Positions 53,568 through 56,915 of a stretch of 64,000 nt of DNA are shown here, in pieces. The stretch's first letter is position 1; each line of letters starts with the position of its first letter. A model generated the notes under the pieces. That model was given only the letters and a program-made list of their open reading frames with translations. It did no database searches and was not told the origin of the DNA. This DNA comes from an uncultured Pelagibacteraceae bacterium (GTDB lineage Bacteria > Pseudomonadota > Alphaproteobacteria > Pelagibacterales > Pelagibacteraceae): assembly GCA_902558835.1 (NCBI GenBank), contig CACEFK010000001.1, forward strand, positions 62,001 to 126,000, in the 5' to 3' direction. Made by a program: the position numbers and the translations under genes.

Positions 53568-53652
53568 GGGCGAATGGCGGAACTGGTAGACGCGCACGAC
53601 TCAAAATCGTGTTTCGCAAGAAGTGAGAGTTCGATTCTCTCTTCGCCCACCA
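53568..53652 (+). tRNA. tRNA-Leu (anticodon CAA), CCA encoded
   Basis: GGGCGAA/TTCGCCC acceptor stem, CACGA-CTCAAAA-TCGTG anticodon arm, short variable arm, GTTCGATTC T-loop, ACCA end. Confidence 0.95.
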
Positions 53653-53659
53653 AGTAACT

Positions 53660-55390
53660 ATGAATTTAAATAATTTAAATAATTTGATCGAATTATTTGT
53701 CAATCAAGCAAATAAACAAAATAAAAAAGATATTTTTTTAGAATGGCTAAACCCAAGCAATAAAAAAACATATACATGGGAACAAACTGAAAAGAATATT
53801 TTAAAATTATCAAAAGTTATTAAAGAAAATATAAATGAAGGTGATAGATGTCTTTTAGTTTCGGAGAATAGACCAGAGTGGTTTGTTTCTGATTTAGCTA
53901 TTATGGTAGCTGGTGGAATTACAGTTCCAGCATACACAACTTATACAGAAGATGATTATAAGTACTTGATAGAAGATTGTGAGCCTAGCTTAGTTGTTGT
54001 TTCTAATAATGAAATGTTAAAAAAACTAAATAATTCAATTAACGAAAAAGACTTTATCAAAAAAGTTATTACTTTGGATGAAAAAACCAAGGTAACAAAT
54101 AGTTTAAATATAATTAACAAAGAAAAATATTTAGATTTTAATTTAATTATAAATAATAATTTATTAGCAGAAGATAAAATTGAAAATAATAAATTAAAAA
54201 GAAATTCTCCAGCATGTATCATTTATACTTCCGGAACTGGAGGTAATCCTAAAGGAGTAATTTTAAGTCATGGTGGAATTTTAAATAATCTCGTAGGAGC
54301 ATGTGAAATTATGAAACCATTGTTTAACTCAAGACCAGTATTTTTAACCTGGCTTCCTCTTTCACACTCTTATGAGCATTGTGTTCAATTTGCACAGATA
54401 GCTGTAGGAGCAAAAGTATTCTACGTAGAAAAAATAGAAAAACTTTTAGAAAATATATCTGATGCAAAACCCACAATTATGACAGCAGTTCCAAGGTTCT
54501 ACCAAAACCTTTACAACAAAATAAACATAAATTTAAAAAAACAAACAGGTTTTAAAGCAAAATTAATTGAAGCAACTCTTCGTTTGGGAAGAAAAAAACT
54601 ATTAAATCAAAAAATGACATTTTCTGAAAAATTACTCAATTTTATAGTTGATAAATTAGTTAGAAAAAAAATAAAAAAACAGTTTGGTGGAAATTTGAAA
54701 GCTTTCGTTTCAGGCGGTGGTGCTCTAGACAAAGAAATAGGAGAATTTTTGAATTCTGTGGGGCTGCCTACTCTTCAGGGTTATGGTTTAACAGAAACAT
54801 CACCAGTAGTAAGTTGCAATCCAATACATAAAATTAAAGTGGAAACTGTAGGACCACCATTTAAAGGGAATGAAGTTAAAATTGCTGAAGATGGAGAAAT
54901 TTTAGTTAAAGGTGAAAATGTAATGTTAGGATATTGGAACAAAAAAGAAGAAACTGATAAAGTAATTATAAATGGATGGCTTCATACTGGTGATATTGGA
55001 GAGATAGATCTAAATGATGGTTATTTAAAAATTACTGATAGAAAAAAAGATATCATAGTAAGTGCTGGTGGAGATAATATTTCACCTGCTAAAATTGAAA
55101 ATATGATTACAAATGAGCCCGAGATAGATCAATGCATGGTTTATGGAGATAAAAAAAATTACTTAGTTGCTTTAATTGTTCCTAATAAAGATTTTTTAAA
55201 TGAAAAAGAAAAAATAAATAAAGTAATTGAAAAAATAAATACAAAATTAACTTTATTAGAAAAGATAAAAAGAATTCAATTAATAGATGAAAATTTTTCT
55301 ATTGAAAATGGTTTAATGACACCAACAATGAAAGTAAAAAGAAAAAAAGTTACAGAAAAATATAAAAATCAGCTAGAGAATCTTTATTAA
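53660..55390 (+). CDS. AMP-dependent long-chain acyl-CoA synthetase
   Basis: IIYTSGTGGNPKGVILSHGG, GYGLTETSPV, DRKKDIIVSAGGDNISPAKIE. Confidence 0.92.
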   Translation: MNLNNLNNLIELFVNQANKQNKKDIFLEWLNPSNKKTYTWEQTEKNILKLSKVIKENINEGDRCLLVSENRPEWFVSDLAIMVAGGITVPAYTTYTEDDYKYLIEDCEPSLVVVSNNEMLKKLNNSINEKDFIKKVITLDEKTKVTNSLNIINKEKYLDFNLIINNNLLAEDKIENNKLKRNSPACIIYTSGTGGNPKGVILSHGGILNNLVGACEIMKPLFNSRPVFLTWLPLSHSYEHCVQFAQIAVGAKVFYVEKIEKLLENISDAKPTIMTAVPRFYQNLYNKININLKKQTGFKAKLIEATLRLGRKKLLNQKMTFSEKLLNFIVDKLVRKKIKKQFGGNLKAFVSGGGALDKEIGEFLNSVGLPTLQGYGLTETSPVVSCNPIHKIKVETVGPPFKGNEVKIAEDGEILVKGENVMLGYWNKKEETDKVIINGWLHTGDIGEIDLNDGYLKITDRKKDIIVSAGGDNISPAKIENMITNEPEIDQCMVYGDKKNYLVALIVPNKDFLNEKEKINKVIEKINTKLTLLEKIKRIQLIDENFSIENGLMTPTMKVKRKKVTEKYKNQLENLY

Positions 55391-55549
55391 ACAATTAAAA
55401 TTATATTGTTTATTAACCGCATAAACATTAACTAAATTAATAAAAAAAGTTTTATAAAAATAAAAAATTAAAATAAAAATTTTATAAAATTTAACTTTTA
55501 ATTAAAGAATTGACATAACTTATAGAAAAAAATAAAAATATGTTAATAG

Positions 55550-55566
55550 CGAATCAATTTGATTCG
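55550..55566. promoter_or_regulatory. Perfect palindrome upstream of lysine-rich mini-protein
   Basis: CGAATCAA-T-TTGATTCG; 35 nt after TTGACA (55510-55515). Confidence 0.6.
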
Positions 55567-55590
55567 TTTAACTAAAAAAGGGAGCTAAAG

Positions 55591-55683
55591 ATGCCTAAGA
55601 AAAGAAAAAAAGCGGCAAAGAAAACTAAGAAAAAAGCTAAGAAAAAAGCTAAGAAAAAAGCAAAAAAAAGAAGAAGAAAATAG
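55591..55683 (+). CDS. 30-aa Lys/Ala/Arg-rich basic mini-protein, not in ORF track
   Basis: ATGCCTAAGAAAAGA... = MPKKRKKAAKKTKKKAKKKAKKKAKKRRRK*; gggag SD-like sequence, upstream TTGACA, downstream terminator. Confidence 0.8.
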   Translation: MPKKRKKAAKKTKKKAKKKAKKKAKKRRRK

Positions 55684-55701: not shown

Positions 55702-55746
55702 AAAAAACGCTTCTCATTACAGTTTGTGTGAGAGGCGTTTTTTTTT
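55702..55746. terminator. Bidirectional intrinsic terminator between mini-protein and carD
   Basis: AAAAAACGCTTCTCA...TGAGAGGCGTTTTTTTTT stem-loop, T-runs on both strands. Confidence 0.85.
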
Positions 55747-56632
55747 ACTCGTCAATAGGTTCGTCGTTATCAGAAATTGGCTCGTCAACAGGTAGTTCAC
55801 TAGTTGCAGTTTTTGCAGGTGCTACTGGTTGAGGCTGCCCAGCTAAATTTCTTTTTAGTGCTTTATCCAATTTTTTTTGAGTATCTTCTAATGATACATT
55901 TAAAACAATCTGAAATTCAGACAGAATTCTTTCATAAGCTTTTTCAAATAATTGTCTTTCACTATAAGACTGGTCAACCATAAGGTCATCACCCTTGTTT
56001 AAATCTCTGACAACTTCAGCTAATTCATATATTTTTCCAGAAGATATTTTTGCTTCATATTCTTGCGCTCTTCGACTCCACATTGATCTTTTAATTTTTG
56101 GTTTACTTTTTAAAATTGAAATACACTTGTTTACTTGATTAATAGTTGCTAACGGCCTTAAGTGAGACTGCTTGTTTACAGGGACCATTCCATTAGCTTT
56201 GTCTTTTTCAAATTTAATAACATACGTCTCAACATCAATTCCACCAATGTTGATCTTTTTAAATTCAGTAATTTGCCCTACCCCGTGCTTTGGATAAACA
56301 ACATGATCTTTAATTTTGTATTCTCTTTTTTCGGTTTCTTGTTTTTTAACTTTTTTTATTTCAGGTTTAACTTCATTTGTTTTTGAAATTCTTAAATTAT
56401 CTACTTTTGGTTCAGCTGTCGTTTCTGTAATTTTAACAGCTTTTTTTGTTTTTGTTATTTTAGGTGAAACTTTTTTAACAACTTTTTTGATTTTTTTTGA
56501 AATTATTTTTTTAGCTTTTTTAGTTTTTTTAGCTTTTACAACCTTCTTTTTAGAAACTTTTTTTTTCACTTTTTTGTCTGTTTTGCCTTTAAAGATTTTC
56601 TTTAAAATATTTTTCGTACTTATTTTGCTCAT
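55745..56632 (-). CDS. carD: CarD-family RNA polymerase-binding regulator with Lys-rich N-terminal extension
   Basis: CarD_CdnL domain [27 protein letters not shown]...; N-terminus [28 protein letters not shown]; likely start 56632. Confidence 0.9.
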
Positions 56633-56915
56633 TTTTAAATTTCTCGTGATCCGCTGGTGGATCTTTTTTTTCACTTATGTTAGGCCAGATTTCAGAATAT
56701 TTTTTATTGATCTCTAACCATTTTTCACTTCCAGGTTCGGTGTCTGCTTTTATGGCATCGACAGGACATTCTGGCTCGCAAACGCCACAATCTATACACT
56801 CATCGGGTTTAATTACAAGCATATTTTTACCTTCGTAAAAGCAATCAACTGGGCAGACATCAACACAGTCTGTTAGTTTGCACTTAATACAATTGTCGTT
56901 AACGATATATGTCAT
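56589..56915 (-). CDS. fdxA: 7Fe-type ferredoxin FdxA
   Basis: [38 protein letters not shown]. Confidence 0.95.

Follow-up and report, generated by a model that had tools for sequence, protein, structure and literature searches.

The open reading frame at 55591..55683 of the window (the whole stretch of 64,000 nucleotides analysed here, GC = 0.29) is a real gene that codes for a protein and has a promoter, a leader, and a terminator of its own. Its 30-aa product is made almost solely of lysine, alanine, and arginine, and contains KKKA units. We consider it probable, at roughly 0.6, that this protein is a minimal soluble polycation of the histone-H1-tail type that binds to nucleic acid; the nucleoid, where it would join HU, is the most likely site. 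The features of the locus are listed below.

53660..55390, + strand: fadD-like acyl-CoA synthetase gene, the upstream neighbour (Pfam AMP-binding)
55510-55515, + strand: promoter -35 element TTGACA (TTGAC is kept in 65 distinct leaders across the order)
55533-55538 (TAAAAA) or 55534-55539 (AAAAAT), + strand: putative -10 element, a weak hexamer
55548..55568, + strand: 5' leader hairpin with CGAATC at 55550-55555, kept in each lineage
55579..55590, + strand: Shine-Dalgarno box AGGGAGCTAAAG, unpaired in the window's genus (g1)
55591..55683, + strand: gene of the 30-aa polybasic protein MPKKRKKAAKKTKKKAKKKAKKKAKKRRRK, based on orthologues, a coding test, and avoidance of A-runs
55702..55746, no strand assigned: bidirectional intrinsic terminator hairpin between the gene and carD, based on its fold and on relatives
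55745..56674, - strand: carD homologue, the convergent neighbour and search anchor (Pfam CarD_C and CarD_TRCF_RID)

Distribution and coding capacity of the gene

The sequence-only reading had given the sequence and coordinates of the ORF exactly. The SD-like GGGAG that it named was found at 55580-55584, and the upstream TTGACA at the -35 position listed above. The Shine-Dalgarno box shows no variation in any carD-anchored g1 locus that covers it. The terminator, described in the same reading as strong and bidirectional, has a folding energy of -21.8 kcal/mol (z -5.6 versus shuffles) and a U-run usable on both strands; an equivalent hairpin is present in relatives. No neighbour overlaps the ORF, as had been claimed, and the ORF is single copy in the window's genome. 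A tRNA gene (53568-53649, + strand; Rfam tRNA, 58.5 bits) lies immediately 5' of the fadD-like gene. In the carD homologue, the CarD domain is preceded by an N-terminal tail, rich in Lys, of about 80-100 aa. This tail is itself H1-tail-like, and is found across the Pelagibacterales with variable length (short in g8).

Loci of relatives were retrieved using carD as the anchor, not the polybasic ORF itself. The 72 Pelagibacterales genomes that were read, with one count per genome, represent two families of the order. The search of the fadD-carD region in other SAR11 genomes, which had been proposed earlier, was run from carD in this way. Wherever the carD locus was complete (69/69 genomes; G019 via L005), the polybasic ORF was present, on the same side of carD and in convergent orientation. 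In 3/72 genomes the locus is cut by the end of the contig, and the 3' part of an ORF rich in Lys and Arg can still be seen. The sister family (f2, L038-L052) has a csaA-like tRNA-binding-domain gene in the fadD-like position, as assigned by eye. Since the upstream gene of f2 is no longer fadD-like, carD is the lasting link of the polybasic gene.

A scan of public genomes found at least 120 contigs that match AGGGAGCTAAAGATGSCTA; among the matches listed, nearly all were named Pelagibacteraceae or Pelagibacter, which makes Pelagibacter or a close relative the genus of the window. About 100 further Pelagibacteraceae contigs (at least 100) carry the gene. The loci matching AGGGAGCTAAAGATGSCTA translate to the same kind of peptide, except two: L080, on a Sulfurovum contig, and L085, at a locus edge, give no polybasic peptide. 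A phage-borne gene was rejected, since four IMG/VR contigs match the start-context pattern and 0/4 encode the peptide. No comparable ORF was found on the carD side in 30 loci of other alphaproteobacterial families, where the ORFs met were short reading frames of GC-rich DNA. A search with the 85-aa f2 protein against 142 genomes of the class gave no matches, but it missed the known carrier G061 too and is given no weight here. The gene appears to be SAR11-wide from these comparisons, and exclusivity to SAR11 is not claimed.

At the genus level, 165 loci, some of them overlapping, comprise 76 different coding sequences, which encode 45 different proteins. Among near-neighbour coding sequences, third codon positions account for 246/367 changes, counted over non-independent pairs. 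Synonymous changes make up 68%, where random placement of these base changes would give 30%. Lys/Arg exchanges were at the expected level (26% versus 27%), whereas the remaining, non-conservative amino-acid changes fell to 6% versus 42% expected. The pairs are non-independent but the effect is large, and the codons of the polybasic ORF are under purifying selection. Runs of eight or more A residues were observed 9 times, versus about 100 expected when synonymous codons are shuffled. AAG is interleaved with AAA and slippery runs are avoided, as expected if the reading frame matters. Length differences are whole codons throughout. None of the frameshifts, internal stops, or lost start codons that the sequence-only reading had asked about occurred in the orthologues, and its proposal of a real monocistronic gene is backed by both conservation and codon-level selection.

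A-rich DNA favours lysine codons and the genome is AT-rich, so a chance A-rich ORF in AT-rich intergenic DNA was considered. This explanation is refuted by the order-wide conservation, the codon selection, and the avoidance of A-runs, and its probability is negligible. It is also very improbable that a small RNA or the leader is what functions here and that the ORF is incidental. The conserved 5' hairpin and the terminator do frame a transcript of about 200 nt; however, the changes are concentrated at third positions and are mostly synonymous, the indels are of whole codons, and the spacing between the Shine-Dalgarno box and the ATG is kept. There is also no co-directional downstream gene, and no Rfam family matched the leader/gene region at the gathering score. 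Two Rfam matches were taken as chance, namely rhtB on the opposite strand (27 bits versus a threshold of 55) and ctRNA. A leader peptide or attenuator was rejected because carD, the downstream gene, is convergent.

The leader and its GAATC site

The leader hairpin holds two GANTC sites (55551-55555 and 55561-55565), and the window leader folds with an MFE of -13.6 kcal/mol (z -2.9). CGAATC occurs in 65/65 distinct leaders, and CGAATCA in 64/65. Counted from where the -35 element begins, CGAATC is located at 38-41 nt in 64/65 leaders, while the start codon is anywhere between 36 and 63 nt away from it. CGAATC always opens or borders a hairpin, and the partner arm drifts with compensatory changes: it is GATTCG in g1 and GATTTG in g8, and g5-g7 have longer stems of the AUCACUUAAA/UUUAAGUGAU type. 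The constancy of the left arm, CGAATC, against a changing partner is more than pairing by itself can account for. A DNA operator of purely palindromic kind was rejected, as the right half of the dyad is lost in g5-g7 with the pairing kept. The dyad has no repeats elsewhere in the genome beyond chance. The accessible text of a paper on structured RNAs of P. ubique (PMC2704228) does not describe this leader. The leader motif and hairpin (55548-55568, with equivalents in L038-L052 and L190-L209) are conserved across the order, and may act as a cis-regulatory RNA or as a promoter element that responds to methylation.

The GAATC within the invariant CGAATC is a CcrM site (GANTC) and is found in 65/65 leaders. 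It is positioned beside the promoter, just downstream of the expected transcription start. The published start-site table of HTCC7211, in the accessible part of its source, covers annotated genes only (PMC5069720). A CcrM-type methylase (PF01555) was identified in 7/7 SAR11 genomes tested, and GcrA (PF07750) in 6/7. A CcrM homologue has been reported in SAR11, and GcrA follows the same distribution (PMC3973325). In Caulobacter, GcrA is recruited to promoters with methylated GANTC (PMC3667746). The sequence features expected of a promoter under CcrM/GcrA control, a conserved promoter GANTC and a genome that encodes both proteins, are found here. Taken together, the conserved GAATC, the CcrM and GcrA genes, and the published work make replication-coupled transcription of the polybasic gene a real possibility. 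In the window as a whole, GANTC is under-represented (87 versus 120 expected by a Markov estimate), chiefly as GAATC (20 versus 44) and GATTC (29 versus 43).

When each leader was folded, a second stem was found in f2, g5, and g7, in which CUCC or CCUC pairs with the GGAG of the Shine-Dalgarno box. The mean pairing probability of GGAG is 0.66 in f2, 0.86 in g5, and 0.98 in g7. The second stem is absent in g1, g8, and g9, where the mean values are 0.09, 0.02, and 0.08, respectively. From these predicted folds, translation looks to be gated by a stem at the ribosome site in some lineages, and to be open in the window's genus. The output of the gene is probably set by the leader: the hairpin at the 5' end would stabilise the short mRNA, and in some genera the CUCC:GGAG stem would hide the ribosome site, while the window's genus has no such stem.

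Composition of the protein and its likely partner

The window protein contains 18 Lys and 4 Arg (22/30 residues) and no acidic residue, with a net charge of about +22. In the window's genus the protein is 21-41 aa long, with the pattern M(A/P)K(R/K)RKKA...KKRRRR. Across the family (f1) the length ranges from 21 aa in g8 to 58 aa in g7 (MAKKRKKAAKKKVAKKPAKRKVAKKKPAAKKRKPAAKKKAPAKKRKPAKKKTAKKRKR), and the copies in g8 and g9 are richer in Arg. The f2 protein has 40-91 aa and starts with MEELKVIFAKARKKAKKKAAPKKK. The N-termini differ between the two families (MAKRRKK in f1 versus MEELKVIFAKA in f2). The low-complexity sequences are not meaningfully alignable, and the orthology of f1 and f2 therefore rests on position, leader, and terminator. 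AAPKKK/KPAKK repeats occur in the g7 and f2 orthologues. The likeness to a histone-H1 tail noted earlier in the window peptide extends to its relatives: the longer orthologues, in other SAR11 genera and in f2, are plainly Lys/Ala/Pro proteins of the H1-tail type. An AF2 model from the single sequence gave one helix (residues 3-29, pLDDT 95), which is weak evidence for an isolated peptide.

The charge of about +22 on 30 aa, the lengthening by repeat units, and the constant Lys/Arg/Ala composition point to a bulk, sequence-independent polycation lying as a helix on phosphate. A length of 21-91 aa with Lys/Arg/Ala kept fits such a polycation, and not an enzyme or a peptide with specific contacts. 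The peptide would bind the phosphate backbone with no sequence specificity, via a uniformly charged induced helix. In the nucleoid of SAR11 it would neutralise and bridge the DNA, with an accessory role next to HU/IHF. SAR11 genomes have HU/IHF-family genes in 2-3 copies, so the peptide would supplement HU and act beside it. By our own estimate, about 2.6 million phosphates are present in a genome of 1.3 Mb, and full neutralisation would take more than 100,000 copies at +22. With so many copies needed, the peptide would more realistically act locally or in an accessory role, barring extreme expression; by the same estimate, a whole-nucleoid effect would need very high expression.

The nucleoid-compacting, RNA-binding, or polyamine-like roles suggested in the sequence-only reading are all plausible, and the sequence cannot separate DNA from RNA, the ribosome, or polyphosphate as the partner. 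An RNA- or ribosome-associated basic peptide, similar in size and charge to eL41 (eukaryotes and archaea) or bTHX (bacteria), which stabilises rRNA or serves as an RNA chaperone, is the nearest alternative, though a rather unlikely one. It would fit the size range of 21-30 aa, the extreme basicity, and the single predicted helix, as well as a gene that is single copy in the window's genome, has a conserved ribosome-binding site, and is kept by a streamlined lineage wherever the locus is complete. However, the length drift to 91 aa and the expansion of Ala/Pro repeats are unlike a ribosomal protein with a fixed site, and the gene is not near ribosomal genes. No PDB chain matched at E<=10, in a search whose sensitivity is limited by the low-complexity query. 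A peptide that binds polyphosphate or another polyanion is considered improbable. The H1-like AlgP of Pseudomonas organises polyphosphate granules, according to the accessible part of PMC9239181. SAR11 also lives under nutrient limitation, which would suit such a role, but the genes at the locus itself show no connection to polyphosphate.

Binding in the nucleoid beside HU is the reading that we prefer. Its most extended form would have the SAR11 chromosome packaged by a peptide the size of a protamine; transcription of this peptide would be coupled to replication via a CcrM-methylated GAATC read by GcrA, and its translation would be gated in some lineages by a leader that hides the ribosome site. 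This combination as a whole is unlikely.

Comparison with known basic proteins and biological meaning

The bacterial H1-like Lys/Ala/Pro proteins include the C-terminus of AlgP (Pseudomonas), HctB/Hc2 (Chlamydia), and BpH1 (Bordetella). The polybasic proteins share with them low-complexity Lys/Ala(/Pro) repeats of variable number (KKKA here), without acidic patches; Pro is present in the repeats of the g7 and f2 forms. Unlike AlgP, HctB, and BpH1, the forms of the window's genus have 21-41 aa, are mostly without proline, and are far shorter. Their genomic context is also different. No Pfam or NCBIfam profile, including those of the named member families, matched the window, g7, or f2 proteins, and so we do not assign the protein to HctB, Hc1, or AlgP.

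The peptide also resembles the animal sperm protamines, which have about 30 aa, an extreme net charge, and no fold expected in isolation. However, it is bacterial, has no cysteine, and is Lys-rich rather than Arg-rich in this genome (18 Lys versus 4 Arg), and no homology is implied. The small ribosomal proteins eL41/bTHX are similarly very basic, with about 25 aa, but they have no sequence match to the polybasic protein, which reaches up to 91 aa. HU/IHF (Bac_DNA_binding, PF00216) would share the nucleoid as the proposed site of action, and is an unrelated protein.

No paper describing the polybasic gene was found in the open-access literature, and most subscription journals fall outside that scope. 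The findings that appear to be new are the SAR11-wide distribution of the gene, a leader that would mask the ribosome site in certain genera, though not in g1, and an invariant CcrM-type methylation site beside the promoter, in organisms with a CcrM-type methylase and GcrA. Common gene-length cut-offs would exclude the shorter forms. The trypsin fragments would be one to three residues long, so that the product is invisible to standard proteomics.

Few cells in the ocean are as abundant as SAR11 bacteria, whose genomes are some of the smallest of free-living organisms. The gene was kept in every complete locus examined, and is unlikely to be dispensable. At 21-30 aa, the polybasic protein would rank among the smallest histone-like proteins known, and may offer a concrete handle on DNA or RNA organisation in a very small cell.
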